Below are positions 48,098 to 64,000 of a stretch of DNA of 64,000 nucleotides, piece after piece. The DNA lies in assembly GCF_040214835.1 (NCBI RefSeq), contig NZ_CP157874.1, positions 2,732,001 to 2,796,000 on the forward strand, read 5' to 3'. The position numbers were made by a program, and so were the translations under genes. Under the pieces are notes generated by a model. That model did not search any database. It was not told the DNA's origin and saw nothing but the letters and a program-made list of their open reading frames with translations. This DNA comes from Pseudomonas asiatica. GTDB taxonomy: Bacteria > Pseudomonadota > Gammaproteobacteria > Pseudomonadales > Pseudomonadaceae. Positions within the stretch are counted from its first letter, which is position 1. Every line of letters starts with the position of its first letter.

Positions 48098-48135
48098 TGT
48101 CATCAAATGAAAACCCGCTGTCGTCCGATGCGAAG
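48098..48135 (+). promoter_or_regulatory. AraC-type direct-repeat operator of operon 1 (with -10 at 48156)
   Basis: Two direct repeats, TGTCATCAAATGAAAAC (48098) and TGTCGTCCGATGCGAAG (48119), are spaced exactly 21 bp, two helical turns. A -10-like TACAGT follows at 48156-48161, 37 bp from the start of the second repeat, so the second half overlaps the -35 region. The same arrangement lies at 55930 before operon 2. This is typical of a class II AraC activator site. Confidence 0.75.
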
Positions 48136-48215
48136 CACCCCGCACACCAAGGGCATACAGTCCAATCACCCAGAACTGACGCCATGCGTCCAGATCGATG
48201 ATTGGAGAGACAAGC

Positions 48216-49196
48216 ATGTCCAAAGTCGTACGTTTCCATCAGACCGGTGGCCCCGAGGTGCTGCGCTACGAGGACGCCGAGGTCGGCGAGCCCGGCCCGG
48301 GGCAGGTGCGCTTGCGCCAGGTGGCGGTGGGCCTGAACTACGCCGATACCTATTTCCGCAACGGCACCTACCCGATCCCGCTGCCCAACGGCATCGGCGT
48401 GGAAGCGGCCGGGGTGGTCGAGGCGCTGGGCGAGGGTGTGACCCAGGTGGCAGTCGGTGACCGGGTCACCTACACCGGTTTCCTCAACACCCTGGGCGCC
48501 TACTGCACCGAGCGCCTGATCCCCGCGGCCGCGCTGATCAAGCTGCCCGATACCATCGCCTTCGAAACCGCCGCCGCCATGACCATGCGCGGCCTGACCT
48601 CCGCCTACCTGCTGCGTCGGCTCCATGACTTCAAACCCGGCGACAGCGTGCTGCTGCATGCTGCCGCTGGCGGGGTCGGCCTGATCGTCGCGCAGTGGGC
48701 GCAGCTGCTGGGGCTGAACGTGATCGGCACGGTGTCCACCGAGGCCAAGGCCGAGGTGGCTCGCGCCCATGGCTGCAACCACGTCATCAACTACAGCGTC
48801 GAGGACGTTGCCACGCGCGTGCGTGAGCTGACCGACGGGGTGGGGGTGAACGTGGTGTTCGACAGCGTTGGCAAGAACACCTTCATGGGCTCGCTCGATT
48901 CGCTCAAGCGCCGCGGCCTGATGGTTTGCGTCGGCACGGCGTCAGGCACCATCCCGCCGTTCGACCCGCAGTTGCTGGCGATCAAGGGCTCGCTGCAGCT
49001 CACCCGCCCGGCACTGGCCGACTTCATCGCCGACCCGGCGGAAAAGGCCGACCTGGCCGGTGAGCTGTTCGATCACGTCGGCAGCGGGCGCATCCGTATC
49101 GAGATCAACCAGCACTACGCACTGCAGGATGCCGTCCAGGCCCACCGTGACCTGGAAGCGCGCAAGACCACCGGCTCGTCGATCTTCGTCATCTGA
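48216..49196 (+). CDS. qor: NADPH:quinone oxidoreductase, zinc-less MDR family
   Basis: A 326-residue quinone oxidoreductase closely resembling E. coli Qor (327 residues) over its whole length. The start at 48216 (GGAGAG site) is chosen over an in-frame ATG at 48198. Features are GVEAAGVVEALGEGV, the nucleotide loop AAAGGVGLIVAQWA and LKRRGLMVCVGTASG. Zinc ligands are absent. It carries NADPH-dependent reduction of quinones or enones. First gene of the AraC-linked operon, 13 bp before the dioxygenase gene. Confidence 0.9.
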   Translation: MSKVVRFHQTGGPEVLRYEDAEVGEPGPGQVRLRQVAVGLNYADTYFRNGTYPIPLPNGIGVEAAGVVEALGEGVTQVAVGDRVTYTGFLNTLGAYCTERLIPAAALIKLPDTIAFETAAAMTMRGLTSAYLLRRLHDFKPGDSVLLHAAAGGVGLIVAQWAQLLGLNVIGTVSTEAKAEVARAHGCNHVINYSVEDVATRVRELTDGVGVNVVFDSVGKNTFMGSLDSLKRRGLMVCVGTASGTIPPFDPQLLAIKGSLQLTRPALADFIADPAEKADLAGELFDHVGSGRIRIEINQHYALQDAVQAHRDLEARKTTGSSIFVI

Positions 49197-49209
49197 AGAG
49201 GGCAACAGC

Positions 49210-50058
49210 ATGCACATCGAACAACTGACCTGCGCGATCGGTGCCGAGGTAAGTGGGGTCAACCTGGCCGACGCGATCCACGACGACGACCTGTTCGCCC
49301 AGCTTCGCGCGCAGTTGCTCCGGCACCGTGTGCTGTTCCTGCGCGACCAGCACTTCAGCCGCGCCGAACATGTAGCGTTCGCCCGCCGCTTCGGCGACCT
49401 GGAGGACCACCCGGTGGCCGGCAGCGACCCGGAGCATCCGGGCCTGGTACAGATCTACAAGCGCCCGGACCAGCCCAACGACCGCTATGAAAATGCCTGG
49501 CACACCGACGCCACCTGGCGCGAGGCCCCGCCGATGGGCTGTGTGCTGCGCTGCATCGAATGCCCGCCCGTGGGCGGCGACACGATGTGGGCGAACATGG
49601 TGCTGGCCTATGAAAACCTGCCAGGCGATGTGAAGGCCAAGATCGAAGGCCTGCGCGCCCGTCACAGCATCGAGGCCAGCTTTGGCGCCGCCATGCCGCT
49701 GGAAAAGCGCCTGGCGCTGAAGGCGCAGTTCCCGGATGCCGAGCACCCGGTGGTGCGCACCCACCCGGAAACCGGCGAGCAGGTGCTGTTCGTCAACGCC
49801 TTCACCACCCATTTCAGCAATTACCACACCCCGCAGCGGGTGCGCTTCGGGCAGGACGCCAACCCCGGTGCCAGCGACCTGCTGCGTTACCTGATCAGCC
49901 AGGCCTACCTGCCGGAGTACCAGGTGCGCTGGCGCTGGAAGCCCAACAGCGTGGCGATCTGGGACAACCGCAGCACCCAGCACTACGCCGTCATGGACTA
50001 CCCGCCGTGCCACCGCAAGATGGAGCGCGCCGGGATCAAGGGCAGCCCCACGTTCTGA
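49210..50058 (+). CDS. TauD/TfdA-family Fe(II)/2-oxoglutarate dioxygenase
   Basis: A 282-residue dioxygenase. The metal triad is visible: His98 and Asp100 in WHTDATW, and His258 in NRSTQHYAV, with a downstream Arg269 for 2-oxoglutarate. Length matches TauD and TfdA. Such enzymes hydroxylate a carbon next to a sulfonate, ether or amine, releasing sulfite or another group. Clustering with a YeiH exporter makes a sulfonate a candidate, but this is inference; a role in ether or betaine oxidation is equally open. The start at 49210 has AGAGG before it. Confidence 0.88.
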   Translation: MHIEQLTCAIGAEVSGVNLADAIHDDDLFAQLRAQLLRHRVLFLRDQHFSRAEHVAFARRFGDLEDHPVAGSDPEHPGLVQIYKRPDQPNDRYENAWHTDATWREAPPMGCVLRCIECPPVGGDTMWANMVLAYENLPGDVKAKIEGLRARHSIEASFGAAMPLEKRLALKAQFPDAEHPVVRTHPETGEQVLFVNAFTTHFSNYHTPQRVRFGQDANPGASDLLRYLISQAYLPEYQVRWRWKPNSVAIWDNRSTQHYAVMDYPPCHRKMERAGIKGSPTF

Positions 50059-50088
50059 GTTCGTCGCCGTCGCTGGCGGCAACCGCAC

Positions 50089-50096
50089 AATAACAA
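50089..50096 (+). promoter_or_regulatory. Hfq/Crc catabolite-activity motif before the BKACE gene
   Basis: ACAATAACAATA (50087-50098) contains AATAACAA, matching the AAnAAnAA motif bound by Hfq-Crc in Pseudomonas leaders. It lies about 17 bp before the BKACE start and close to its ribosome site, where such motifs block translation. Confidence 0.6.
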
Positions 50097-50112
50097 TAGC
50101 GAGGACTACAGC

Positions 50113-51162
50113 ATGCAATTCTTCGACGATTCGTTGCACCCTGAAAACATGGAAAAGGTGGTGATCACCGTGGCCCCCTATGGCCCGGAGTGGATGCCTG
50201 AAGACTTCCCTGAAGACATTCCCCTGACCATGGACGAGCAGGTGCAGAAGGCTGTCGACTGCTACGAGGCAGGTGCCACCGTATTGCACCTGCACGTGCG
50301 CGAACTGGACGGCAAGGGCTCCAAGCGCCTGTCCAAGTTCAACGAGCTGATCGCCGGGGTGCGCGAAGCGGTGCCGGACATGATCATCCAGGTTGGCGGG
50401 TCGATTTCCTTTGCCCCGGAAGGCGAAGGCGAGGCTGCCAAGTGGCTGTCGGACGATACCCGGCACATGCTCGCCGAGCTGACGCCGCGCCCCGACCAGG
50501 TGACCGTGGCCATCAACACCACGCAGATGAACATCATGGAGTTGCTGTACCCCGAGTACCTGGAAGGTACCTCGCTGGCCAGCCCGGCGATTCATGCCGC
50601 CTACAGCGAGATGACTGTGCCGGCCGGCCCGGCCTGGGTCCGCGAGCACCTGCGCCGCCTGCAGGCCAGCAACATCCAGCCGCATTTCCAGCTGACCGGC
50701 ATGCATGCCCTGGAGACGCTCGAGCGCATCGTCCGCCGTGGTGACTACATGGGCCCGCTGAACCTGACCTGGATCGGCATTGGCGGCGGTTTCGACGGCC
50801 CCAACCCGTTCAACTTCTTCAACTTCATCCACCGCGCGCCGGACGGTTGCACCCTGACCGCCGAGTCGTTGCTGAAGAACGTGCTGCCGTTCAACACCAT
50901 GGCCCTGGCCATGGGCCTGCACCCACGCTGCGGCAACGAAGACACCATCATCGACCAGCATGGCAAGCGCTTCACCTCGGTGCAGCAGATCCAGCAGACC
51001 GTGCGTGTGGCCCATGAGCTGGGCCGCGAGATTGCCAGCGGCAAGGAAGCACGCGCCATTTACCGCATCGGGCAGCAGTACGACAGCATCGAGCAGACCC
51101 TCGAGGCCAACGGCATGGCGCCGAATCGCCAGCCGGGTGTGAAGGGCGTGCCGCAGCGCTGA
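50113..51162 (+). CDS. BKACE-family beta-keto acid cleavage enzyme (3-keto-5-aminohexanoate cleavage family, DUF849)
   Basis: A 349-residue TIM-barrel protein. The zinc site is LHLHVRE (His59, His61), with further conserved blocks GGSISFAPEG and TGMHALET and the GMHPRCGNEDTI-like segment. BKACE enzymes cleave a beta-keto acid with acetyl-CoA, giving acetoacetate and an acyl-CoA. The protein is longer than the typical 270-310 residues. It is 54 bp after the dioxygenase gene, so a pathway from dioxygenase product through a beta-keto acid is plausible (inference). Confidence 0.88.
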   Translation: MQFFDDSLHPENMEKVVITVAPYGPEWMPEDFPEDIPLTMDEQVQKAVDCYEAGATVLHLHVRELDGKGSKRLSKFNELIAGVREAVPDMIIQVGGSISFAPEGEGEAAKWLSDDTRHMLAELTPRPDQVTVAINTTQMNIMELLYPEYLEGTSLASPAIHAAYSEMTVPAGPAWVREHLRRLQASNIQPHFQLTGMHALETLERIVRRGDYMGPLNLTWIGIGGGFDGPNPFNFFNFIHRAPDGCTLTAESLLKNVLPFNTMALAMGLHPRCGNEDTIIDQHGKRFTSVQQIQQTVRVAHELGREIASGKEARAIYRIGQQYDSIEQTLEANGMAPNRQPGVKGVPQR

Positions 51163-51185
51163 CTTCACTGGCCTGCGCTGGCCTT

Positions 51186-51302
51186 TTTAGGAGCGGCCTT
51201 GTGTCGCGACAGGGCTGCACAGCAGCCCCGGCAATAGTTGAGTTGACGCTTCAATCGGGGGCCGCTTTGCGGCCCATCGCGACACAAGGCCGCTCCTACA
51301 GG
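51186..51302. repeat. Family B inverted repeat inside operon 1
   Basis: A long palindrome of the GGCCTTGTGTCGCGA type lies between BKACE and MFS genes. Its position within a same-strand gene group may lower expression of the downstream genes relative to the upstream ones. Confidence 0.88.
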
Positions 51303-51356
51303 GGGCGTGCCAATGCATAAGAACAAGAAAAACCCACATCACCCCAAGGAGGCAAC

Positions 51357-52673
51357 ATGGCCACCTATCTCGCCAGTGCCGAAGATTCCGGCACCGACAC
51401 CGCCCACAGCGTCCCCCGGCGCTATGCCTGGGTGGTCTTCGCCCTGACCTTTGGCCTGTTGATCTCCGACTACATGTCGCGCCAGGTGCTCAATGCGGTG
51501 TTCCCGCTGCTCAAGGGCGAATGGGCGTTGAGCGACAGCCAGCTCGGCCTGCTCAGCGGTATCGTCGCGCTGATGGTCGGCCTGCTGACCTTCCCGCTGT
51601 CGCTGCTGGCCGACCGCTTCGGCCGGGTGCGCAGCCTGGTGCTGATGGCAGTACTGTGGAGCCTGGCCACCCTCGGCTGCGCCCTGGCGGAAAACTACCC
51701 GCAAATGTTCGTCGCGCGGTTTCTGGTGGGGGTGGGCGAGGCGGCCTACGGCAGTGTCGGCATCGCCGTGGTGGTCGCGGTGTTCCCCCGCGACATGCGC
51801 TCGACCCTGGCCGGCGCGTTCATGGCCGGTGGCATGTTCGGCTCGGTGCTGGGCATGGCCCTGGGCGGTGTACTGGCCCAGCACCTGGGCTGGCGCTGGG
51901 CATTCGCCGGCATGGCGCTGTTCGGCCTGGTGCTGGCGATGCTGTACCCGCTGATCGTCAAAGAGGCACGTATTGCGCCTCGGTGCGCGCAGCAGTCGCA
52001 AGGCAGGGCCGGCCGTCCGCTGCGCACTCTGTACAGCAGCCGTTCGGTCATCGCGGCCTACGTCGGCAGCGGGCTGCAGCTGTTCGTCGGCGGCACCGTG
52101 ATCGTGTGGATGCCAAGCTACCTGAACCGCTATTACGCCATGGGTACCGACCGCGCCGGGGCAATTGCCGCAGTCATCGTGCTGTGCAGCGGCATCGGCA
52201 TGATCCTCTGCGCCATGCTCTGCGACCGCCTCGGGCGGCAGCGCCCGGACCGCAAGATCAGCCTTGCCATCGCCTACTGCCTGGGCAGTTGCGCGCTGTT
52301 GTCCATCGCCTTCGCACTACCGGCCGGCACCGCCCAACTGGTACTGATCTGTCTGGGCATGATGATCGCCGCCGGCACCAACGGCCCGTCCAGTGCCATG
52401 GTCGCCAACCTCACCCACGCCTCGGTGCACGGCACCGCGTTTGCCACCCTGACCCTGGCCAACAACCTGTTGGGCCTGGCCACCGGGCCGCTGATCACCG
52501 GGCGCGTTTCCGACCTGATCGGCCTGCATGCCGCCTTCCAGCTGGTGCCGCTGATGAGTATCGGCGCGGCGGCGGTGTTTTTCCTCGCCAAACGTCATTA
52601 CCACCGCGACATGGACCGTCTGCATGCACCGGCACACGACGCCGCCGACGCACCCCGGGAGTTGAAACCGTGA
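51357..52673 (+). CDS. MFS transporter
   Basis: A 438-residue carrier with 12 predicted helices, opening RYAWVVFALTFGLLISDYMSR, with the loop motif LADRFGRVRSL after TM2 and SNR-like RQVLNAVF in TM1. It belongs to the organic-acid/aromatic uptake-like group (ACS/AAHS style). The start is preceded by AAGGAGG. It overlaps the next gene by 4 bp and probably imports the compound degraded by this operon. A CA-like stretch AAGAACAAGAA lies at 51319-51329. Confidence 0.88.
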   Translation: MATYLASAEDSGTDTAHSVPRRYAWVVFALTFGLLISDYMSRQVLNAVFPLLKGEWALSDSQLGLLSGIVALMVGLLTFPLSLLADRFGRVRSLVLMAVLWSLATLGCALAENYPQMFVARFLVGVGEAAYGSVGIAVVVAVFPRDMRSTLAGAFMAGGMFGSVLGMALGGVLAQHLGWRWAFAGMALFGLVLAMLYPLIVKEARIAPRCAQQSQGRAGRPLRTLYSSRSVIAAYVGSGLQLFVGGTVIVWMPSYLNRYYAMGTDRAGAIAAVIVLCSGIGMILCAMLCDRLGRQRPDRKISLAIAYCLGSCALLSIAFALPAGTAQLVLICLGMMIAAGTNGPSSAMVANLTHASVHGTAFATLTLANNLLGLATGPLITGRVSDLIGLHAAFQLVPLMSIGAAAVFFLAKRHYHRDMDRLHAPAHDAADAPRELKP

Positions 52674-53323
52674 AACAGCTGTTGTCCGTCGAAGTGTTCT
52701 TCGATTTCGTCTGCCCGTGGTGCCTGATTGGCCAGCGGCACCTGCAGGCTGCCCTGTTGCTGTTGCAGCGCGAACAGCCGCAAGTGCAGGTACAACTGCG
52801 ATGGCGAGGTGTGCAGTTGTTGCCTGGCTTGCCCGCCGTTGGCGTGCCGTTCCATGCCTTCTATCTGCAACGCCTGGGCAGCGAGGAGGCGGTACGCGAG
52901 CGCCAGGCCCAGGTGCGCGCCGCTGCCCGTGTGGTAGGCGAGGACATCGACTTCTCGCGTATTCGCCGCATGCCCAACACCGGCAATGCCCATCGGCTGC
53001 TGCAACGGGCTGCCCAGTTGCTCGAAGCAGCGCAACTGGAAGCCTTGCTGGCGCAGTTGTTCATCGCCTATTTCCACCAGGGCCGCGACCTGGGGGATAG
53101 CCGCACCTTGCTCGACATCGCCCAATGTTGCGGGCTGGATACCGCGCAGGTGGTCGACTGCCTGCGTGACGACGGCAGCCCGTTCCTCGATGGGGCCGGG
53201 CGCGCTGGCAGTGCCGTGCCGCGCTTCCGTTTCAATCAGGGGCCGCTCGTTGCGGGTGCGCAGCCTGCCGCGGTGCTGTATGCGGCCATGACCGAAGCGC
53301 TGCAAGAGGTTGAGCGGGCATGA
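52670..53323 (+). CDS. DsbA/FrnE-family oxidoreductase
   Basis: A 217-residue protein starting at GTG 52670, overlapping the MFS stop (GTGA). The motif FFDFVCPWCLIG holds the CPWC centre (Cys15, Cys18) of FrnE/2-hydroxychromene-2-carboxylate isomerase-type DsbA folds. It has no signal peptide, so it acts in the cytoplasm. Possible jobs are thiol-disulfide exchange or isomerisation of a glutathione adduct. It is coupled to the MFS and Rieske genes. Confidence 0.85.
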   Translation: MKQLLSVEVFFDFVCPWCLIGQRHLQAALLLLQREQPQVQVQLRWRGVQLLPGLPAVGVPFHAFYLQRLGSEEAVRERQAQVRAAARVVGEDIDFSRIRRMPNTGNAHRLLQRAAQLLEAAQLEALLAQLFIAYFHQGRDLGDSRTLLDIAQCCGLDTAQVVDCLRDDGSPFLDGAGRAGSAVPRFRFNQGPLVAGAQPAAVLYAAMTEALQEVERA

Positions 53324-53646
53324 CCCGACGCATTGCATTGGCCCCCCATCAGGTGCCGGAACGTGACGGCCGTGTGCTGTTGGCCTGCGAAGGGCGCAGC
53401 GTGGCGCTGTTCAACGTTGCCGACTCGCTCTATGCCATCGACGACAGCTGCCCGCACCAGGGCGCGTCGTTGTGCGGCGGGCGGCTGGAAGGCCGTGTCA
53501 TCCAGTGCTGCGCGCATGGCCTGCGCTTCGACCTGGCCAGCGGCTATCTGGTCAACTCCAGGGCCTTGAAGGTTGCCAGCTACCCGGTCGAGCAGCAGGG
53601 CGGGCAGGTCTACATCGTGTTTGACAGTGAGGAGGCGGGGCAATGA
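53320..53646 (+). CDS. Rieske-type [2Fe-2S] ferredoxin
   Basis: A 108-residue Rieske domain: CPHQGASLCGG (Cys44, His46) and CCAHGLRFDLASG (Cys63 or Cys64, His66) with 16 residues between the pairs. It has no membrane anchor, so it is a soluble electron carrier, probably for an oxygenase or reductase. It overlaps the DsbA gene by 4 bp and the YeiH gene by 4 bp, and belongs with operon 1. Confidence 0.9.
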   Translation: MTRRIALAPHQVPERDGRVLLACEGRSVALFNVADSLYAIDDSCPHQGASLCGGRLEGRVIQCCAHGLRFDLASGYLVNSRALKVASYPVEQQGGQVYIVFDSEEAGQ

Positions 53647-54656
53647 ATACACTGGCACTTGGCGCTACCCATCAGCGTATCCGCACCCTCGCCCCGGGGG
53701 TGGTGGTCAGCCTTGTCGTCGGCGCGGCCGCCAGTTTCCTCGGTGAGCATTACGCGGCCCCGGTCATGCTGTTTGCCTTGCTATTGGGGATGGCGCTGAA
53801 CTTTCTCGCGGTCGACGGCCCCTGCAAGGCCGGTATCGAGTTCACCGCCCGCACGGTACTGCGCCTGGGCGTGGCGCTGCTTGGCATGCGCATCACCCTG
53901 GACCAGATCGCCAGCCTGGGCTGGAAGCCCGTGGCCCTGGTCGTGACCCTGGTGGTGGTGACCATCCTGGTCTCGGTGGTGGTGGCCAAGGTGCTGGGGT
54001 TTTCACGGCTGTTCGGCATGCTCACCGGCGGTGCCACGGCCATTTGCGGTGCCTCGGCTGCGCTGGCGCTGGCAGCTGCCTTGCCACAGCACCCGCGCAA
54101 GGAGCATGCAACGCTGTTCACCGTGATCGGCGTGTCGGCGCTGTCGACCCTGGCGATGATCTTGTACCCGATGATTGCCCAGTGGCTGCACCTGTCCCCG
54201 GCGCAGGCCGGGGTCTTCCTCGGTGCGACCATCCACGACGTGGCGCAGGTGGTGGGAGCGGGCTACAGCATGTCTACCGAGACCGGCGACATCGCCACGG
54301 TGGTCAAGCTGATGCGGGTGGCCATGCTGTTGCCGGTCATTGTCTGCGCAGCCATGATCACCCGGCGCCAGGGCCTCGAGGCCGGTGGCCAGCGGCCGCC
54401 CTTGCTGCCATGGTTCGCGGTCGGCTTCCTGCTGCTGGCGTGCGTCAACAGCACAGGCTGGGTACCCACCACAGTGCAAGGCGGTATCAACGACCTGTCG
54501 CGTGGCTGCCTGGTGGTGGCGATCAGTGCCCTGGGCATGAAAACTCAACTCAAGTCGCTAGCCTCGGTCGGGGTGAAACCCATTGCGCTGATGGTGGGGG
54601 AGAGCGTGTTTCTTGTGCTTTTGGTGCTGGCGTTGATGCACTGGGGCCTTGCCTGA
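53643..54656 (+). CDS. YeiH-family putative sulfate/sulfite exporter
   Basis: A 337-residue membrane protein of the UPF0324/YeiH family with about ten helices. Characteristic blocks are GMALNF, RLGVALLGMRITLDQI, GGATAICGASAALALAAALP and GATIHDVAQVVGAGYS. Members are linked with sulfur anion export, for example during sulfonate breakdown. This supports, but does not prove, that operon 1 produces sulfite or sulfate. It is the last gene of the operon; a family B repeat follows at 54675. Confidence 0.88.
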   Translation: MNTLALGATHQRIRTLAPGVVVSLVVGAAASFLGEHYAAPVMLFALLLGMALNFLAVDGPCKAGIEFTARTVLRLGVALLGMRITLDQIASLGWKPVALVVTLVVVTILVSVVVAKVLGFSRLFGMLTGGATAICGASAALALAAALPQHPRKEHATLFTVIGVSALSTLAMILYPMIAQWLHLSPAQAGVFLGATIHDVAQVVGAGYSMSTETGDIATVVKLMRVAMLLPVIVCAAMITRRQGLEAGGQRPPLLPWFAVGFLLLACVNSTGWVPTTVQGGINDLSRGCLVVAISALGMKTQLKSLASVGVKPIALMVGESVFLVLLVLALMHWGLA

Positions 54657-54674
54657 CTGCTTGACGCGGTCGAT

Positions 54675-54792
54675 TGTAGGAGCGGCCTTGTGTCGCGAAA
54701 GGGCTGCGCAGCAGCCCCGGCAATATGGGCGTCTGCACTGAACCCCCGGGGCTGCTGCGCAGCCCTATCGCGACACAAGGCCGCTCCTACAC
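54675..54792. repeat. Family B inverted repeat after operon 1
   Basis: A near-perfect palindrome (arms of about 45 bp) between the converging YeiH and AraC genes, where it may act as a bidirectional transcription barrier. Confidence 0.88.
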
Positions 54793-54811
54793 GGGCCGTA
54801 CCAGGATCAAG

Positions 54812-55822
54812 CTAAAGCCCTTGATCAGCCCGCTGTGCCCGCCAACTGGCCGGCGGCATGCCGAACTGGGCGATGAACCAGCGGGTGAACGAGCTGGGCA
54901 TTGAATAACCCAGCATGTCGGCGATACGCCCCAGCGAATAGCCGGGGTTTTCCAGGTAGCGCATCACCAGGTCACGGCGCACGCTGTTGATCAGGTCCTT
55001 GAAGGTCAACCCGCTTTCTTCCAGGCGACGCTGCAGGGTGCGCACGTTCATGCCCTGAGTCTGTGCCACCTGCTCGATGGTGGCGCGGCCCATGGGCAGC
55101 AGCAGGTAAATGGTCTTGCGCAACTCCAGCTCCAGGGACGGCGTGCCGCCCGCCGGCAGGCTGTCCAGATAGCGCTGCGCCAGGCGCGCCATGGCCTCGT
55201 TGGCTTGCGGGCTGGCGCTGTCGAGGTCGGCGGCCGGGCAGACGATACCGTTGAACTCGCTGCCGAACACCAGCGTGCAGCCGAAAATGCGCCGGTGGGT
55301 GGCCAGGTCGGCGGGAGGCGCGTGAGTGAAGTTGGCGCTGATCGGGTGCCAATGCGCACCTAGCAGCGCCGCGCACAGGCGCATCATCACGCCGATCGCC
55401 AGCTCGGTGGCCTGGCGGCTGCAGGGCGCGCGTTCGTTGATCACCTCCTCACGGATGACCACGGTCTTGCCGGCTTCCTCGATATGAATGGCCAGGGCGT
55501 CATTGAGCAAGTGACGGTACTGCACGATCACCTGCAGCGCATCACGCAGGGTGCGTTGGTGGCTGAGCAGCAGGCTGATTTCGCCGAAGTCCGACAGTTG
55601 CCGCAACTCGGCCATGCGCAGGCCGAAACTTTCGCAACGGGTGGCGCTGGCGGAGGCCTCCAGCAAGGTGATGACGCTGGCAACCGGGATACGCCGGTTG
55701 GGGTCATCGAGCAACGCGGCGCTGAGGCCAACCTGTGCCAACAGTGCATGGGGATTGAGGCCCAGGTGGCGGGACACCTCAAGGTAATTGGTCAAGCTGG
55801 CGGCACGGACTAGGGCAGGCAT
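54812..55822 (-). CDS. AraC-family transcriptional activator with arabinose-binding-like domain
   Basis: A 336-residue regulator. The N-terminal 190 residues form an arabinose-binding/OruR-type sensor domain (NYLEVSRHLGLNPHALLAQVGLS, read in parts). The C-terminal AraC domain has two helix-turn-helices, QGMNVRTLQRRLEESGLTF and YSLGRIADMLGYSMPSSFTRWF. It lies between operons 1 and 2 and is divergent from operon 2. The matching 21-bp direct repeats before both operons make it their likely activator. Effector unknown. Confidence 0.9.
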   Translation of the reverse strand: MPALVRAASLTNYLEVSRHLGLNPHALLAQVGLSAALLDDPNRRIPVASVITLLEASASATRCESFGLRMAELRQLSDFGEISLLLSHQRTLRDALQVIVQYRHLLNDALAIHIEEAGKTVVIREEVINERAPCSRQATELAIGVMMRLCAALLGAHWHPISANFTHAPPADLATHRRIFGCTLVFGSEFNGIVCPAADLDSASPQANEAMARLAQRYLDSLPAGGTPSLELELRKTIYLLLPMGRATIEQVAQTQGMNVRTLQRRLEESGLTFKDLINSVRRDLVMRYLENPGYSLGRIADMLGYSMPSSFTRWFIAQFGMPPASWRAQRADQGL

Positions 55823-55929
55823 CTTTGGTTGTTTTCCATGCGGTTTCTTGTTGTTGGGTATGCCGACATGCGTTTTGTGTTTATAGCCTGCGTGTCATGA
55901 ATTGAAAAGCAAAGCCCTGTCTTGGCCAT

Positions 55930-55967
55930 TGTCATCAAATGAAAAGCCCCTGACGCCCAATGTGAAG
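55930..55967 (+). promoter_or_regulatory. AraC-type direct-repeat operator of operon 2 (with -10 at 55988)
   Basis: TGTCATCAAATGAAAAG (55930) and TGACGCCCAATGTGAAG (55951) are direct repeats 21 bp apart. A -10-like TACTGT is at 55988-55993, again 37 bp after the second repeat start. The first repeat agrees with the 48098 copy in its first 16 bases. It lies between the AraC gene and the operon it probably activates. Confidence 0.75.
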
Positions 55968-56028
55968 CACCCGGTGGGTGGGCTGTTTACTGTGAACCTC
56001 AAGAGCTACACCGCACACGAGGTTCACC

Positions 56029-56607
56029 GTGGAAAAACTGCAAACCACTGCCACCGTGCTGATCGTCCCCGGCCTGCGCGACCATGTCGCCGAACACTGG
56101 CAGACCCTGCTCGCAGGCCGCCTGGCCAAGGTGCGCAGCGTACCGCCGCTGCAAGTCGACGGCCTGAGCTGCACGGCCCGGGTCGAGGCGATCCAGCGCG
56201 AACTGGACCAGATCGATGGTGAAGTGATCCTGGTAGCGCACAGCGCAGGCGTGCTGATGGTCGCCCACTGGGCGGCGCGCTACCGGCGGCCGATCAAGGG
56301 TGCATTGCTGGCGGCGCCGCCCGACCTGAACGCGCCATGGCCGGCCCACTACCCAAGCCCGGCCAGCCTGGCCGAGCACGGCTGGTCGCCATTGCCCCAG
56401 CAGCCGCTGCCGTTCCCCAGCATTGTCGCGGCCAGCAGCAACGACCACCTGGCCAGCTTTGCCGCAGCCAGCGCCCTGGCCCGAGGCTGGGGTAGCGAAC
56501 TGGTCGGACTGGGGGCCGTCGGCCACCTCAACCCGGCCTCCGGCTTCGGCCCCTGGCCGCAGGCCGAGGCGTTCATCCAGCGACTGGACCAGCCCAACCT
56601 GCAATAG
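56029..56607 (+). CDS. Small alpha/beta hydrolase, RBBP9/YdeN family
   Basis: A 192-residue hydrolase starting at GTG 56029 after a GAGG site. VLIVPGLRDHVAEHWQTLLAG opens the fold, the nucleophile elbow is VAHSAGVLMVAHWA, and the terminal histidine is in GHLNPASGFG, as in the RBBP9/YdeN group of serine hydrolases. It is first in operon 2 and could cleave an ester at the start of the pathway. It has no signal peptide, so it acts in the cytoplasm. Confidence 0.88.
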   Translation: MEKLQTTATVLIVPGLRDHVAEHWQTLLAGRLAKVRSVPPLQVDGLSCTARVEAIQRELDQIDGEVILVAHSAGVLMVAHWAARYRRPIKGALLAAPPDLNAPWPAHYPSPASLAEHGWSPLPQQPLPFPSIVAASSNDHLASFAAASALARGWGSELVGLGAVGHLNPASGFGPWPQAEAFIQRLDQPNLQ

Positions 56608-56681: not shown

Positions 56682-58637
56682 ATGCCAGAACACCGCATTC
56701 ACCGTGCTGTGAAACCACAGCGCTGCCTGCTCGCCTGCGCCATCGGCCTGCTCACGCTGCCCGCCGCCCAGGCGTTCGAAGTCGATACCGGAAATGAAAA
56801 CTGGGCCGTGCGCTTCGACAACACCGTCAAGTACAACTACGGCGTACGCACCGAAAGCGCCGACAAGCGCATGTTGGGCACGCCCAACAGCAACGACGGT
56901 GACTACAACTTCCGCAAGGCCGGCACCAACATCACCAACCGGGTCGACCTGCTGACCGAACTGGATGTGGTCTACCAGGGCAACACCGGGTTCCGCGTCA
57001 GCACCGCCAGCTGGTACGACAAGGCCTATGACAACACCGGCTCCAATAGCAACCCGTTCGTCAACGGCAACGGTGACCAGTCCGGCATCAACCCCAGCCT
57101 CAATGGCCTGCCCGGCACCGGTGTGCCGTTGGGCAGCCCGCACCTGAGCAACTACGCCCAGCGTTACTACAGCGGCCCGTCCGGTGAAGTGCTGGATGCC
57201 TTCGTGTTCTTCAGCCGTGAAGTCGGCGAGGCTTCGCAGGTCAGCGCCAAGCTGGGCCAGCACAACCTGTTCTGGGGTGAAACCCTGCTCAACCCGGTGC
57301 ACTCGCTGAGCTACGGCCAGTCGGGCCTGGACCTGGCCAAGCTGGCCGCCTCGCCGGGCACCGAGGCCAAGGAGCTGTTCGTGCCGCGCAACCAGCTGTC
57401 GACCTCGTTCCTGGTCAATTCCGAACTGACTCTGGGCGCCCAGTACTTCTTCGACTGGGACGCCGCCCGCCTGCCCGAAGCCGGTACCTACTATGGCGGC
57501 TCGGACGTGGTAGGCGAGGGCGCCCAAAGCTTCCTGCTCGGCCACACCGGCACCCCCGGGCTGATCCCGGTGCGCGGTGCGCTGACCACCATCCGCCGTG
57601 GCCATGACCTGAACCCGGGCAAGAGCGGCGACTGGGGCATCATGGCCAAGTGGTCGCCCGAGTGGCTGGGCGGCACCCTCGGCTTCTACTACCGCAAGAC
57701 CTCCGAGATCCTCCCGCAGGCCTGGCTCGACGCGCGCGGCATGACCGTCGCCAATGGCCCGTTCGGCAACCCGCCGGGCAGCCGTCAAGGTGCAGTCGGC
57801 AACCTGTACAACTCGCTGCAAAGCACTACCTACCAGTTCGCCTATTCCGACGACATCGACATCTATGGCCTGAGCCTGTCCAAGGATGTGGGCGGCATCA
57901 GTGTCGGCAGTGACCTCAACATTCGCCACAACATGCCGCTGGCGAGCATCCCGGCAATCGTCAGCGCCCCCGGCCAGGGTGGCCTGGGCGGCGGCTTCGG
58001 CCTGCTGCCGGCACGCCTGCCCAGCAGTGGGGTGATCTACGACGTGCCCAAGGATGGCGACGGCCTGAGCGCCACCGGCGACACCCTGCACTGGACCTTG
58101 AACGGCCTGATGACCATTGGCGATACGCCGCTGTTCGATTCGGCAACCCTGCTTGGCGAGCTGTTCTACAGCAACCTGCTCAAGCTCGATAGCCACAACG
58201 AGGCCTTGTACAAGGGCAAGAGCAGCTACCGCGGCATCGACAAGGCCACCCGCGACAACTGGGGCATCGCCGTCAACTTCACCCCTACCTGGTACCAGGT
58301 GCTGCCTGGCATGGACCTGAGCATGCCGCTGTCGGTCAACGTCGGCCTCGACGGCGTGTCGCCGGTGCAGGGCGGTGGCGCCGAGAACACCGGCAACTAT
58401 GCGGTGGGCGTGAGCGCCGCGATCTACAACCAGTACTTCGTCGACCTCAAGTACGTCGACAGTTTCGGTGAGACCAAGGCCTGCAAGGACGGCCAGACCG
58501 ACGGCAGCACCCCCAACGCCCTGGACGGCGAACAGGATTACACCTGCTACGGCGGCGGCTACGCCTCCTTCTCCGGCGGTGGTGCCACCACCGAGGACCG
58601 TGGCGCCCTGTACCTGACCGTCAAGACGACCTTCTGA
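56682..58637 (+). CDS. DUF1302 outer-membrane beta-barrel protein
   Basis: A 651-residue protein with a signal peptide (cleavage near AQA-FE, residue 31). The mature part is rich in alternating beta strands with aromatic and Gly residues (RFDNTVKYNYGVR, VSTASWYDKAYDN) and ends in Phe (LYLTVKTTF), the hallmark of an outer-membrane beta barrel. DUF1302 genes usually sit with DUF1329 and MMPL genes, as here. Role is inferred as a channel or receptor for a hydrophobic substrate. Confidence 0.88.
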   Translation: MPEHRIHRAVKPQRCLLACAIGLLTLPAAQAFEVDTGNENWAVRFDNTVKYNYGVRTESADKRMLGTPNSNDGDYNFRKAGTNITNRVDLLTELDVVYQGNTGFRVSTASWYDKAYDNTGSNSNPFVNGNGDQSGINPSLNGLPGTGVPLGSPHLSNYAQRYYSGPSGEVLDAFVFFSREVGEASQVSAKLGQHNLFWGETLLNPVHSLSYGQSGLDLAKLAASPGTEAKELFVPRNQLSTSFLVNSELTLGAQYFFDWDAARLPEAGTYYGGSDVVGEGAQSFLLGHTGTPGLIPVRGALTTIRRGHDLNPGKSGDWGIMAKWSPEWLGGTLGFYYRKTSEILPQAWLDARGMTVANGPFGNPPGSRQGAVGNLYNSLQSTTYQFAYSDDIDIYGLSLSKDVGGISVGSDLNIRHNMPLASIPAIVSAPGQGGLGGGFGLLPARLPSSGVIYDVPKDGDGLSATGDTLHWTLNGLMTIGDTPLFDSATLLGELFYSNLLKLDSHNEALYKGKSSYRGIDKATRDNWGIAVNFTPTWYQVLPGMDLSMPLSVNVGLDGVSPVQGGGAENTGNYAVGVSAAIYNQYFVDLKYVDSFGETKACKDGQTDGSTPNALDGEQDYTCYGGGYASFSGGGATTEDRGALYLTVKTTF

Positions 58638-58675: not shown

Positions 58676-60034
58676 ATGAATTTCGTACGTACCCTGCTGG
58701 CCTCGTGCCTGTCACTGGCCGCCCTGAACGCTGCCCAGGCCGCCGTTTCCACTGATCAGGCCGCGCGCCTGGGCACCAGCCTGACCGTCATCGGCGCGGA
58801 AAAGGCCGGCAACGCCGATGGCTCGATCCCGGCCTACCAGGGCGGCCTGCTGACGCCGCCAGCCAGCTACCAGAGCGGCGCCAGCATGCGCCCCGACCCG
58901 TTCGCCAGCGACAAGCCGCTGCTGGTGATCGATGGCAAGAACGCCGAGCAGTACAAGGACCAACTGACCGCCACCACCCTGGAACTGCTCAAGCGCTACC
59001 CCAGCTACCGCGTCGATGTGTACCCGACCCACCGTAGCGTGGCGCTGCCGCAAGCGGTACTCGACAACACCCGCAAGAACGCCACTGCCGCCAACAGCAA
59101 GGAGGGCGGCACTGCGGTAGACAACGTGCTGCCGGGCATCCCGTTCCCCATTCCGCAGAACGGCGCCGAGGCCATGTGGAACTTCCTGCTGCGCTATCAG
59201 GGCGTGAGCATGACTGCCAAGTACGACTCGTGGAACGTCGACGCTGCTGGCAAGCCATCGCTGTCGACCACCGGCCAGGCCAATATCAGCTACCCGATCT
59301 ACGAAGACATGGCCAAGCCGATCGGCGCCAAGGACACCTACTACCAGATGAAGCTGGTATACACCGGGCCCGCACGCCGTGCCGGCGAAGCGATGATGCT
59401 GCGCGATGCCGCCAACCCGCTGGTGCAGCCACGCAGCGCCTGGCAGTACCTGCCGGGCCAGCGCCGGGTCAAGCTGGCGCCGAACCTGGCCTACGACACG
59501 CCCAACCCGGGCACCTCCGGTTCGGGTACCTACGATGACGTGTTCGTCTTCAACGGTGCGCTGGACCGCTACGACTGGACCTTGGTCGGCAAGCAGGAAA
59601 TGTACGTGCCGTACAACACCTACCAGCTGACCTACAACACCGACGTCAAGCAGGTGATCACCCCCAACCACCTGGCGCCGCAGTTCGTGCGCTGGGAGAA
59701 GCACCGGGTGTGGGTGGTGGAAGGCAAGCTCAAGGACGGGGCGCGCCATATCTACCACAAGCGCCGCTTCTACCTCGACGAAGACAGCTGGATCGCCCTG
59801 GCCTCGGACCAGTACGACGCCCGTGGCCAGCTGTACCGCGGCTCGTTCGCCTTCCTCACCCAGAGCTATGACAAGCAGACCCCGGACGCCACGCCGTTCA
59901 TGATCTACGACCTGATCGGCGGCACCTACAACCTCAATGGCGTGGTCGGTGCCTACGGCGGCATCCGCTACATCGACCCGCTGTCGAAAACCCAGTGGTC
60001 GCCCGAGTCGCTGGCCGGCAACGGCATTCGCTGA
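58676..60034 (+). CDS. DUF1329 (LolB/LolA-like) periplasmic protein
   Basis: A 452-residue exported protein with a signal peptide ending near AQA-AV (residue 23). It contains GIPFPIPQNGAEAMWNFLLRY and RRFYLDEDSWIALASDQYD, typical of DUF1329. The family has a LolA/B-like half-barrel fold, suited to carrying a lipid or hydrophobic compound between the membranes. It is 38 bp after the DUF1302 gene and before the propeller gene. No lipobox, so it is soluble in the periplasm. Confidence 0.9.
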   Translation: MNFVRTLLASCLSLAALNAAQAAVSTDQAARLGTSLTVIGAEKAGNADGSIPAYQGGLLTPPASYQSGASMRPDPFASDKPLLVIDGKNAEQYKDQLTATTLELLKRYPSYRVDVYPTHRSVALPQAVLDNTRKNATAANSKEGGTAVDNVLPGIPFPIPQNGAEAMWNFLLRYQGVSMTAKYDSWNVDAAGKPSLSTTGQANISYPIYEDMAKPIGAKDTYYQMKLVYTGPARRAGEAMMLRDAANPLVQPRSAWQYLPGQRRVKLAPNLAYDTPNPGTSGSGTYDDVFVFNGALDRYDWTLVGKQEMYVPYNTYQLTYNTDVKQVITPNHLAPQFVRWEKHRVWVVEGKLKDGARHIYHKRRFYLDEDSWIALASDQYDARGQLYRGSFAFLTQSYDKQTPDATPFMIYDLIGGTYNLNGVVGAYGGIRYIDPLSKTQWSPESLAGNGIR

Positions 60035-60055
60035 ACGCACGGAGCAGAGGTGGCA

Positions 60056-61051
60056 ATGTCTGTCTTCAAACGATGCAGCGCGGTAGTTCTGGCTTTGGCC
60101 GCGCTGCAGGGCGCGGCCCAGGCTGCGCCCTTCACCGATGTGCTGGACCTGCCCGCCATGCCCAGCGCCCTGGTCGCCAGCAGCGCCTTGCGCGATGTAA
60201 CCCTGGCCGGCCAGCGCCTGGTCGCGGTGGGCCCGCGCGGGCACATCCTGTACTCCGATGACCACGGCGCGCACTGGCAGCAGGCCCAGGTACCGGTCAG
60301 CGCCGACCTTAATGCCGTGAGCTTCGCCACGCCCGAGCTGGGCTGGGCGGTTGGCCACGATGGCGTGGTGCTGCACAGCCGTGATGGCGGCGTGCACTGG
60401 CAGAAGCAGCTGGATGGCCGGGCGCTGGCCGAACAACTGCCGGGCACGGGTAGCGACAATGCCTTGCTCGACGTGTGGTTCGGCGATGCCCGCAATGGCT
60501 ATGCGGTCGGCGTGTTCAACCTGCTGTTGCGCACCGTTGACGGCGGCGAGCACTGGCAGCCCTGGCTCGACCACAGCGATAACCCGCAAGGCCTGCACCT
60601 GACCAGCCTGGCCGCGGTGGGTGACGAGCTGTACATCACCGGCGAGCAAGGCCTGTTGCTGAAGCAGGACGGTGAGCGCTTCAGCCGTGTCGAGACACCC
60701 TACGCCGGCACACTGTTCGGTGCTGTCGGCAAGCCTGGCGTACTGCTGGTCTACGGCCTGCGTGGGCATGCCTACCGCAGCACCGATGGCGGCCGGCAAT
60801 GGCAACCGGTCAGCACGGGTGTGAACACCAGCCTCACCGCCGCCGGTGTCGACCGTGACGGCCAGCTGTGGCTGGCCAGCCAGGCTGGCGACCTGCTGCT
60901 CAGCCGGGATGATGGCGCCAGCTTCAGCCCGGTGCCGCAAAGCGCCCGTGGCCCGGTGACCGCGCTCGCCACCGATACCGGCAACGGCCTGGTATTGGTG
61001 GGCGAGCGGGGCGTGCGCAACCAGGCCGGTAACCCCACGCTGCACCCATAA
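60056..61051 (+). CDS. YCF48/BNR-type beta-propeller exported protein
   Basis: A 331-residue protein with a signal peptide (cleavage near AQA-AP). The start is ATG 60056 after AGAGG; a GTG at 60050 is the alternative. It has repeated propeller blades: ILYSDDHGAHWQQAQVP, LHSRDGGVHWQKQL, RTVDGGEHWQPW, STDGGRQWQPV and LSRDDGASFSPV, the sialidase Asp-box and YCF48 motif. In DUF1302/DUF1329/MMPL clusters this protein is a constant member, likely a periplasmic assembly or scaffold factor. Confidence 0.88.
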   Translation: MSVFKRCSAVVLALAALQGAAQAAPFTDVLDLPAMPSALVASSALRDVTLAGQRLVAVGPRGHILYSDDHGAHWQQAQVPVSADLNAVSFATPELGWAVGHDGVVLHSRDGGVHWQKQLDGRALAEQLPGTGSDNALLDVWFGDARNGYAVGVFNLLLRTVDGGEHWQPWLDHSDNPQGLHLTSLAAVGDELYITGEQGLLLKQDGERFSRVETPYAGTLFGAVGKPGVLLVYGLRGHAYRSTDGGRQWQPVSTGVNTSLTAAGVDRDGQLWLASQAGDLLLSRDDGASFSPVPQSARGPVTALATDTGNGLVLVGERGVRNQAGNPTLHP

Positions 61052-61066
61052 CAAGAGAAGACCCTG

Positions 61067-63532
61067 ATGGCCGCTACCCGCCAAGACACCCTGCCGGTAA
61101 TCCGCAACCTTGACGATTTCGACCCACGCTCGGGCAATTGCCTGGAGCGCCTGGTGTTCAACCATCGCCTGCCGTTCCTGCTGTGCATGCTGCTGGCGAC
61201 TCTGGTGCTGGGCTACATGGCGCTGACCCGCCTGGAGCTGCGCCCCAGTTTCGACAAGATGCTGCCGCAGAGTCACCCCTACATCCAGAACTACCTGGAA
61301 AACCGCCCATCACTGCGTGGCCTGGGCAACGCGGTGCGGGTGGTGGTGGAGAACACCCAGGGCGATATCTTCGACCCGGGCTACCTGCAGACCCTGCGCC
61401 AAATCAACGACGAGCTGTTCCTCAGCCAGGGCGTGGACCGGGCCTGGGTGAAGTCGCTGTGGAGCCCGGCGGTGCGCTGGACCGAGGTGACCGAGGAGGG
61501 CTTCCAGGGCGGCCCGGTGATGCCCGATGGTTACCAGGGCGCTGCGGGTGACATCGAGCAGCTGCGGCAGAACATCGAGCGCGCCAACATCGTCGGCAGC
61601 CTGGTGGCGCGCGACTTCAAGTCGAGCATGCTGGTCGTGCCGCTGCTCGACCAGGATTCGGCCACCGGCAAGGGCCTCGACTACCACGCCTTCTCGCAGA
61701 AGCTTGAACAACTGCGCAGCCAGTACCAGGCCAGCGGCCAGTACCGCATCCATGTGATCGGCTTCGCCAAGCTGATGGGCGACCTGATCGACGGGCTGAT
61801 CCAGGTGATGGCGTTCTTCGCCCTGGCGGTGCTGACCAGTCTGCTGATCATTTACTGCTATACCCGTTGCGTACGCAGCACCCTGCTGGTGGTGCTGTGT
61901 TCGCTGACCGCGGTGGTGTGGCAGCTGGGCATCGTCGCCTGGCTGGGCTACGCCATCGACCCGTATTCGATCCTGGTGCCATTCCTGATCTTTGCCATCG
62001 GCGTATCCCACGCGGCGCAGAAGATGAACGGCATCCTCCAGGACATCGGCCGTGGCACCCACCGCCAGGTGGCAGCGCGCTATACCTTCCGCCGCCTGTT
62101 CGTGGCCGGGGTGACTGCGTTGCTGGCCGATGCGGTGGGCTTTGCCGTGCTGATGCTGATCGACATCCCGGTGATCCAGGACCTGGCGATCACCGCCAGC
62201 ATCGGCGTGGCGGTGCTGATCTTCACCTCGCTGCTGCTGATGCCGGTGGCGCTGTCTTATGTTGGTGTTGGCCGCAAGGCTGCCGAGCGGGCCCTGCATA
62301 TCGACGCCCGCGCAGCCCAGCACCGCGGCTTCGGCCGGCTGTGGGACCTGCTCGACCGCTTCACCGAACGCAAATGGGCCAGCGCCGCACTGCTGGTGGC
62401 CCTGGCCCTGGGCGCCCTCGGCATCTGGGGCAGCCTGCAACTGAAAATCGGCGACCTCGACAGCGGTGCCCCCGAGCTGCGCGCCGACTCCCGCTACAAC
62501 CTCGACAACGCCTACATCACCCAGCACTACGCGCTGTCCAGCGATACCTTCGCGGTCATGGTCAAGACCGCTCCGGAAGGCTGCCTGCAATACCAGACGC
62601 TGGTCCTTGCCGACCGCCTGGCCTGGGAGCTGCAGCAACTGCCGGGTGTGCAGACCACCGTGTCGCTGGCCAACGCAGTGCGCCAGATCACCGCCGGCAC
62701 CTACGAAGGTAACCCGCGCCTGAACAGCCTGCAGCGCAACCAGGACGTGCTCAACTACGCCGCCCAGCAGGCTTCGGTCAACGCCCCAGAGTTGTTCAAC
62801 AACGACTGCTCGCTGATGCCGGTAATCGCCTACCTCAAGGACCATCGCGCCGACACCCTGGCCCAGGTGGCCGCCGTGGCCGAGCGTTTTGCCCAGGCCA
62901 ACAGCAGCGCCGAACAGCGGTTCCTGCTGGCCGCTGGCAGCGCCGGTATCGAGGCTGCCACCAACGTGGTGGTCCGCGAGGCCAACCACCGCATGCTGTT
63001 GCTGGTGTACCTGGCGGTCACGCTGTTCTGCCTGTTCACCTTCCGTAGCTGGCGCGCCACGCTGGTGGCGATCCTGCCGCTGATGCTCACCTCGGTGCTG
63101 TGCGAGGCGCTGATGGTAGCCATGGGCATTGGCGTCAAGGTCGCCACCTTGCCGGTGATCGCCCTGGGCGTAGGCATCGGCGTGGACTACGCGCTGTACC
63201 TGCTCAGCGTGCAACTGCACTACCAGCGCGCCGGGTTGAGCCTGGCCCAGGCCTACCAGAAAGCCGTGGCCTTCACCGGCCGTGTGGTCGGGCTGGTCGG
63301 CATCACCTTGGCCGCCGGCGTGGTCGGCTGGGCCTGGTCGCCGATCAAGTTCCAGGCCGACATGGGCCTGCTGCTGACCTTCATGTTCCTGTGGAACATG
63401 CTCGGCGCTCTGGTGTTGATCCCTGCGTTGTCGCATTTCCTCCTGCGTGGCCAGGCCGCCCCGGCACCTGCCGAGGCCCAGGCCACGTCGCTTCCGCAAA
63501 CCCAAGAAACCGAGTGTTCGCCTCATGTCTGA
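61067..63532 (+). CDS. MMPL/RND-superfamily permease
   Basis: An 821-residue transporter of the COG1033 type. TM1 (LPFLLCMLLATLVLGYMAL, about 34-53) is followed by a periplasmic loop, a five-helix bundle (about 245-405), a second anchor (about 440-460), another loop and a final five-helix bundle (about 645-795). The internal duplication is clear. It probably moves a hydrophobic compound between inner membrane and periplasm, driven by protons, with DUF1329 and DUF1302 partners. It overlaps the acyl-CoA dehydrogenase gene by 8 bp. Confidence 0.9.
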   Translation: MAATRQDTLPVIRNLDDFDPRSGNCLERLVFNHRLPFLLCMLLATLVLGYMALTRLELRPSFDKMLPQSHPYIQNYLENRPSLRGLGNAVRVVVENTQGDIFDPGYLQTLRQINDELFLSQGVDRAWVKSLWSPAVRWTEVTEEGFQGGPVMPDGYQGAAGDIEQLRQNIERANIVGSLVARDFKSSMLVVPLLDQDSATGKGLDYHAFSQKLEQLRSQYQASGQYRIHVIGFAKLMGDLIDGLIQVMAFFALAVLTSLLIIYCYTRCVRSTLLVVLCSLTAVVWQLGIVAWLGYAIDPYSILVPFLIFAIGVSHAAQKMNGILQDIGRGTHRQVAARYTFRRLFVAGVTALLADAVGFAVLMLIDIPVIQDLAITASIGVAVLIFTSLLLMPVALSYVGVGRKAAERALHIDARAAQHRGFGRLWDLLDRFTERKWASAALLVALALGALGIWGSLQLKIGDLDSGAPELRADSRYNLDNAYITQHYALSSDTFAVMVKTAPEGCLQYQTLVLADRLAWELQQLPGVQTTVSLANAVRQITAGTYEGNPRLNSLQRNQDVLNYAAQQASVNAPELFNNDCSLMPVIAYLKDHRADTLAQVAAVAERFAQANSSAEQRFLLAAGSAGIEAATNVVVREANHRMLLLVYLAVTLFCLFTFRSWRATLVAILPLMLTSVLCEALMVAMGIGVKVATLPVIALGVGIGVDYALYLLSVQLHYQRAGLSLAQAYQKAVAFTGRVVGLVGITLAAGVVGWAWSPIKFQADMGLLLTFMFLWNMLGALVLIPALSHFLLRGQAAPAPAEAQATSLPQTQETECSPHV

Positions 63533-64000
63533 TTACCTTCCGCCACTGCGCGACATGGATTTTCTGTTCAACGAAGTGTTCGACATCCCGGCCTGGTGGG
63601 CGCAAACGCCCGCGCTGGCCGAGCAGTTCGATGGCGATACTGCCCGGGCCGTGCTCGAACAGGCCGGCCGGCTGATTGCCGAGGTGGTGGCGCCGCTCAA
63701 CCGCAGTGGCGACGAGCAGGGCTGCCGCTGGGAGGCCGGCCAGGTACACACCCCCGATGGCTTCGCCGATGCCTACCGGGCATTTGCCGCAGATGGCTGG
63801 GTGGGTGTGGCTGGTGCCCCGGAATATGGGGGCATGGGCATGCCGAAAGTGATCGGCGCCCAGCTCGAAGAAATGCTCAATGCCGCCAACCTGTCGTTCG
63901 GCCTGTACCCGATGCTCACGGCCGGAGCCTGCCTGGCGCTGCTCAACCATGCCAGCGAGCCGTTGAAGGCGCTGTATCTGCCGCCCATGTACCAAGGGCG
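63525..64000 (+). CDS. Acyl-CoA dehydrogenase (3' end outside window)
   Basis: The gene starts at 63525, overlaps the MMPL gene by 8 bp and runs off the right edge; 158 residues are visible. The opening YLPPLRDMDFLFNEVFD and the APEYGGMGMPKVIG segment match the long (about 590-residue) acyl-CoA dehydrogenase group that includes DmdC and FadE-like enzymes. It would make the first alpha-beta double bond in an imported acyl chain. The catalytic base is not in the window, so the exact subclass is open. Confidence 0.85.
   Translation, partial: MSDYLPPLRDMDFLFNEVFDIPAWWAQTPALAEQFDGDTARAVLEQAGRLIAEVVAPLNRSGDEQGCRWEAGQVHTPDGFADAYRAFAADGWVGVAGAPEYGGMGMPKVIGAQLEEMLNAANLSFGLYPMLTAGACLALLNHASEPLKALYLPPMYQG

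Follow-up and report, generated by a model that had tools for sequence, protein, structure and literature searches.

In the class II layout of the activators AraC and XylS, same-strand direct repeats are held in fixed phase to the -10 element and lie over a poor -35 element, and both araI of araBAD and the XylS sites at Pm consist of direct half-sites that are 21 bp apart. PhbR of Azotobacter vinelandii and Pseudomonas sp. 61-3 is presented in the cited accounts as an AraC-family activator driving polyhydroxybutyrate (PHB) synthesis genes (PMC7204398, PMC9049629), and the Castellaniella defragrans study describes ameABCD as a monoterpene-tolerance cassette (PMC6394551). Here, we analyzed 64,000 nucleotides of Pseudomonas asiatica (assembly GCF_040214835.1, contig NZ_CP157874.1, positions 2,732,001 to 2,796,000; this whole stretch is referred to as the window and coordinates are counted from its first letter), in which a gene for an AraC-family regulator (54812..55822, reverse strand) was indeed found between two gene sets, as the initial annotation of this DNA had claimed. 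Strand and spacing suggest that each set is co-transcribed, and they are called operon 1 and operon 2 below. Judging from the sequence, it is very likely that this AraC protein activates both operons via bipartite operators and putatively represses its own gene, the operons being tentatively predicted to encode a sulfite-releasing pathway.

Bipartite operators and their conservation

Operator A (48098..48135, with direct half-sites at 48098-48114 and 48119-48135) and operator B (55930..55967, with direct half-sites at 55930-55946 and 55951-55967) are both on the forward strand. From operator start to first gene, the distance is 118 bp for operon 1 (operator A) and 99 bp for operon 2 (operator B). 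The 21-bp spacing reported initially is borne out by the repeat starts (48098/48119 and 55930/55951), and the -10-like elements TACAGT (48156..48161) and TACTGT (55988..55993), both on the forward strand, are located, as had been stated, 37 bp from where the second repeat begins, that is, 58 bp from the start of each operator. The two repeats of a site had been presented as direct repeats of one consensus; their positions and spacing stood, whereas equality was ruled out, as repeats 1 and 2 within one operator are identical at only 11/17 positions. Each operator thus consists of a strong first half and a looser second one.

When operators A and B were compared over two 42-bp stretches, 36/42 positions were identical, whereas after 200 rounds of shuffling both 200-bp upstream regions the highest 42-mer match reached 26. 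The initial annotation had also proposed searching the whole genome for the motif. Allowing up to three mismatches, the full two-repeat pattern was found in the 5.85-Mb genome only at operators A and B, one per operon promoter and with no random scatter, and the pattern read backwards gave no match in the same genome. The half-site pattern with at most one mismatch occurs just three times, at both operators and at 55893-55909, again with an empty read-backwards control; the statement that no third copy exists therefore holds for the full site, but the half-site TGTCATGAATTGAAAAG at 55893-55909 had been missed. The operator matrix carries 54 bits of information over 81 sites, and operators A and B score 65.3 and 69.1, values that are not independent, as the matrix was built partly from these two sites themselves. 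That the matching sites reflect chance or a shared promoter type can be set aside with near certainty, in agreement with the initial assessment, since nothing was found in its favour and the shuffle, whole-genome and cross-species controls contradict it.

A scan with the AraC protein yielded 64 loci for comparison, 63 from Pseudomonas or other Pseudomonadales and one from Polaromonas (L063), in most of which the gene order is kept. With at most 4 mismatches at 30 fixed positions, a site was detected upstream of operon 1 in 45 of the 47 loci with a match in view to its first gene, the NADPH:quinone reductase-like gene (QOR), and upstream of operon 2 in 58 of the 59 loci with its hydrolase gene in view. 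The Polaromonas locus is an exception in both sets and has a weaker site by matrix (26 bits) with TAAATT at the usual offset, while in the remaining exception, L049, the QOR in view is part of another cluster, next to an AraC paralog with 36% identity. That cluster (L049:3489-8052) comprises QOR, TauD, BKACE and MFS genes without the operator, and is perhaps a sister regulon with another site. The site starts 110-121 bp upstream of the gene match for operon 1 and 98-131 bp upstream for operon 2, the latter range omitting a second L014 row at 550. TANNNT, which is a loose pattern, lies exactly at +58 in 46/46 operon 1 rows and 59/60 operon 2 rows (105/106 together; the rows include the window, and L014 is counted twice in the operon 2 set). 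Even where the AraC of a relative is only about 62-70% identical, sites, order and -10 offset are kept. A further DUF1329 copy was seen behind its own operator at L087:8039 (score 50.3) and L052:1608 (2 mismatches).

The third half-operator (55893..55909, forward strand) is inverted relative to araC and covers its expected -35/spacer region, 7 bp from the TATAA of the probable araC promoter (55881..55885, reverse strand). An inverted half-site exactly 7 bp from TATAA is present in the window and in 46/64 loci, and in 37 of these loci the araC start is 57-72 bp away from it. Operator B, by comparison, is at no fixed distance from the half-site, the spacing being 37 bp in the window but 86 bp in L020. 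The half-site thus tracks araC. It is proposed to be an autoregulatory site, and autorepression of araC is probably its simplest reading. In L050, L052 and L059, the nearest half-site is part of operator B.

In the mechanism that we propose, AraC would bind bipartite direct-repeat operators, TGTCATCAAATGAAAAG followed 21 bp on by the looser half TGWCGYCNRATGNRAAGC, with one monomer per half-site and with TGTC and ATGNRAAG presumably read by two helix-turn-helix units one helical turn apart. The second half overlaps the expected -35 region, so that activation may proceed as by AraC-type class II activators, and the single inverted half-site over the araC -35/spacer would probably repress araC. 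Predicted to be activated are QOR, TauD-family, BKACE, MFS, DsbA-like, Rieske and YeiH-like genes in operon 1, and the hydrolase, an AmeABCD-like cassette, acyl-CoA dehydrogenase and acyl-CoA ligase genes in operon 2. A repressor could also act at the expected -35 region that the second half-site overlaps, and AraC might mainly repress the operons or act both ways depending on the ligand; we regard this as improbable, considering that direct repeats fixed in phase to the -10 element over a poor -35 represent the class II activator layout and that the repressive-looking half-site is the inverted one at araC.

Distribution of the operator and its unlinked targets

In a sample of 398 Pseudomonas genomes (full motif with at most 3 mismatches, AraC at E<=1e-60), the motif was found in 84 genomes and a control motif in none. 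It was present in all 80 genomes with AraC versus only 4 of the 318 without it. In a second sample of 198 genomes at the family level (AraC at E<=1e-100; at least 16 genomes are common to both samples), the motif was detected in 46/48 genomes with AraC versus 0/150 without it, and in the two exceptions weaker sites, with scores of 42-45, are present where expected (G548 and G552, only operon 2 being in view in the latter).

Extra motif matches led to genes that are unlinked to the cluster. One is sorA, whose product matches the model for the sulfite dehydrogenase SorA at 652 bits (cutoff 600) and which is present at E<=1e-80 in 34/398 genomes. AraC is present in 23 of the 27 genomes with a close homolog (>80% identity), compared with 80/398 overall. 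The upstream regions of 26 genomes were scanned, leaving out the second copy in G367 and the G070 gene, whose match is split over two frames (a broken gene or an assembly error). The operator was detected upstream of close sorA in 21 of the 22 genomes with AraC (scores 35 to 60) versus none of the 4 without it. Since the matrix was derived from operon 1 and operon 2 sites alone, the sorA sites serve as an outside test, with the limit that the query sorA and the query polyhydroxyalkanoate (PHA) synthase were each found through their own site.

The second unlinked gene encodes an orphan PHA synthase (phaC product, 597 residues), found at E<=1e-220 in 19/398 genomes, all 19 of which contain AraC. 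In six of them it follows YeiH within operon 1 and never has a site of its own (0/6), whereas it has one in 12 of the 13 genomes in which it is located away from operon 1. In these 12 cases, the sites score 40-50 and start 104-118 bp upstream, no query gene lies within about 1.5 kb, and AraC is on another contig or at least 0.69 Mb away. If the operator did not serve this same regulator, it would be difficult to see why phaC bears it only outside the operon. When open reading frames of at least 80 residues in the 16-kb stretches around the extra sites (L074-L089) were searched with a profile of 65 AraC sequences (window and 64 loci), only one weak relative was detected as a neighbouring regulator (L078, 22.6 bits). 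The unlinked sites point to action in trans, and the placement of the same operator before sorA and before a PHA synthase gene that elsewhere lies in operon 1 supports a predicted regulon wider than two operons in relatives. Together with site conservation and a motif that follows the AraC gene, they favour the initial proposal that one AraC activator probably controls both operons.

Several observations weigh against this interpretation. The co-occurrence of AraC and motif is largely linkage, because the genomes are related and the cluster is gained or lost mostly as a unit; the counts are thereby confounded with shared ancestry, and Fisher p-values are not independent evidence. Four genomes without AraC keep a site: in G135 it precedes QOR and a cut TauD gene, and in G301, G228 and G108 no query gene was present in the 16 kb read. 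In 5/64 loci, no half-site scoring more than 8 bits was found at araC. AraC and sorA are both present in G015 with the site absent, no site precedes the four more distant sorA copies, which are 60-65% identical and of which two lie in genomes with AraC, and one of the four AraC-lacking sorA genomes, G316, is only 78% complete. The phaC gene of G114, which lies beside a 42% identical AraC paralog, has no site. Neither close sorA nor orphan phaC was found in the window genome, and close sorA is missing in 57/80 genomes with AraC; sorA is thus an accessory member of the regulon at most.

Paralogs deserve separate consideration. At least 25 of the 80 genomes with AraC have further homologs at E<=1e-60 that could use similar sites, a count that is a lower bound as at most 5 candidates were scored per genome in the 398-genome sample, and upstream of PHA synthases there are sites that end slightly differently. 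Another regulator, such as a paralogous AraC elsewhere in the genome, might accordingly bind the sites, with the neighbouring AraC merely linked to them. We consider this unlikely, since a single homolog was seen in the window genome both at E<=1e-60, with 5 of 42 candidates scored, and at E<=1e-100, with 10 scored, the sorA site is still present in G172, G232 and G246, each with one homolog among 5 scored, sites are missing from 314/318 and 150/150 genomes lacking this AraC, and a half-site sits on the araC promoter itself. The araC match of G390 is split over two frames (a broken gene or an assembly error).

Further operator-like sites were observed in other contexts: at the start of a PAS-MCP chemoreceptor open reading frame in G214 (L086:8001, score 37.4; the true start is uncertain), which may hint at chemotaxis to the substrate; before a class II PHA synthase gene in G208 (L079:8039, 45.5), where the -10 region differs (TATAAAC); and at L089:8001, L083:8039 and L078:8039 (48.5, 31.1 and 45.0), with no firm target gene.

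Operon genes and candidate substrates

All genes of both operons are on the forward strand. Operon 1 comprises QOR (48216..49196; PRK10754, 348.5 bits, cutoff 348), a TauD/TfdA-family 2-oxoglutarate dioxygenase (49210..50058; PF02668, 221.6 bits), a member of the beta-keto acid cleavage enzyme (BKACE) family (50113..51162), an MFS transporter (51357..52673), a DsbA-like thioredoxin-fold protein (52670..53323), a small Rieske ferredoxin (53320..53646), and a YeiH-type putative sulfate export protein (53643..54656; PF03601, 240.8 bits; TIGR00698, 165.2 bits, below the cutoff of 232.6). Operon 2 comprises a Ser_hydrolase (PF06821) protein (56029..56607), DUF1302 (AmeA-like, 56682..58637), DUF1329 (AmeB-like, 58676..60034), YCF48/BNR-like (AmeC-like, 60050..61051), and MMPL/RND transporter (AmeD-like, 61067..63532) proteins, and the start of an acyl-CoA dehydrogenase (63525..64000), which together with an acyl-CoA ligase runs on past the window end. 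The YeiH match at the end of operon 1 was not seen in L008, L011-L014, L018, L040 and L065, where the other operon 1 genes are kept. Operon 1 and araC end convergently, and the inverted repeat with GGGGCTGCTGCGCAGCCC between them (54700-54765) looks REP- or terminator-like by eye.

Our best guess is that the regulon probably breaks down a compound from which attack by the TauD-family enzyme releases sulfite, because of the residues of this enzyme, the YeiH-like gene in operon 1 and the operator at sorA. The protein aligns with E. coli TauD at His70 and Arg270, which we take to be sulfonate-binding residues, and has Ala at the position of Tyr73, presumably likewise a functional residue. The YeiH family is named as putative sulfate exporters. 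Assignment of operon 1 gene 2 as taurine dioxygenase TauD itself was rejected (252 bits, below the NCBIfam equivalog cutoff of 313). The gene order of operon 2, being that of the ameABCD monoterpene-tolerance cassette, makes a hydrophobic substrate likely. Combining both lines, we tentatively suggest that Pseudomonadaceae use this AraC regulon to degrade completely a hydrophobic compound that contains sulfur and resembles a sulfonate or a sulfate ester. In such a regulon, a desulfonating TauD-family enzyme would be coupled with sulfite oxidation or export, beta-keto acid cleavage and an AmeABCD-type pump and, in some species, with a dedicated orphan PHA synthase whose gene would carry the operator only where it has departed from the operon.

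The same evidence leaves a second possibility that concerns the substrate only, and that we hold just as tentatively: a hydrophobic acid or terpenoid without sulfur might be hydroxylated by the TauD-family enzyme, the sorA and YeiH links being incidental. The monoterpene-tolerance gene order of operon 2 fits such a substrate, as do the non-sulfonate dioxygenases within the TauD family (e.g., phenoxypropionate enzymes), the missed taurine dioxygenase cutoff, the Ala at what is presumably a functional tyrosine, and the 57/80 genomes with AraC that lack close sorA. It is at odds with the operator at close sorA in genomes with AraC and at none of the 4 without it, with the enrichment of AraC among close-sorA genomes (23/27 versus 80/398 overall), with the YeiH-like gene in operon 1, and with the alignment at His70 and Arg270, again on the assumption that these bind sulfonate.

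Comparison with described regulators

With an N-terminal PF12625 domain (171.2 bits, cutoff 27.6) and a C-terminal HTH_18 domain (PF12833, 66.7 bits, cutoff 33.6), the window AraC belongs to the AraC/XylS family, in the branch with VirS. VirS of Mycobacterium tuberculosis acts on different targets. It is the closest solved structure by sequence, matching nearly the full length (residues 3-330) of the window protein, but at just 131 bits, and some AraC homologs are named VirS by their sources. Of 7998 candidates scored, 1470 are homologs at E<=1e-90, and among the 120 matches listed the names are generic AraC or VirS. The named AraC-family model with the highest score is QhpR (NCBIfam NF049968; residues 46-328, 198.5 bits), and this identity was rejected as the score lies below the equivalog cutoff of 250; GliR and CypR were rejected as well (132.4 and 75.2 bits versus cutoffs of 570 and 500).

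The four half-site strings of 12 and 13 letters occur in open-licence literature only in cotton or mammalian-cell papers and in no bacterial one. No description of the regulon was found in the same literature, among the titles and abstract openings of the matches listed, when gene families were searched paired with AraC or with each other, in keeping with the initial impression that site and regulon are undescribed. The operator has sufficient specificity for regulon members to be assigned in genomes that lack annotation, and it links DUF1302, DUF1329, BKACE and the orphan PHA synthase in a single predicted pathway whose inducer class can be tested; phaC provides a clean case of a gene that lacks the operator inside the operon and has it outside.

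For operon 2, the described counterpart is the Castellaniella cassette, in which DUF1302, DUF1329, photosystem-II-factor-like and RND genes occur in the same order, although other catabolic genes surround it and the term AraC is absent from the main text of that paper (PMC6394551). The Castellaniella RND protein is HAE3-type; for the RND protein of operon 2, HAE3 scores highest among the models, at 134.1 bits, which is below its cutoff of 351.9.

For the regulator, PhbR may be viewed by analogy as the nearest described relative in kind: in the cited accounts it is an AraC-family activator divergent from its target operon, with two almost identical 18-bp sites and a synthase among its targets (PMC7204398, PMC9049629). 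However, its targets are phbBAC, the likeness is one of description, and the scanned genes divergent from the window araC are not phb genes. The core of the PhbR site is presumably TGTCACCAA, letters that we give as an assumption and that would resemble the window half-site. In architecture, the operators correspond to araI of araBAD and to the XylS sites at Pm, with direct repeats 21 bp apart, a proximal half reaching the -35 region, a fixed phase to the -10 element and a C-terminal double helix-turn-helix in the regulator, but they differ in half-site sequence, N-terminal domain subfamily and targets. An AraC activator on 21-bp direct repeats is thus of a kind already known, whereas this site and its regulon are themselves new as far as found.

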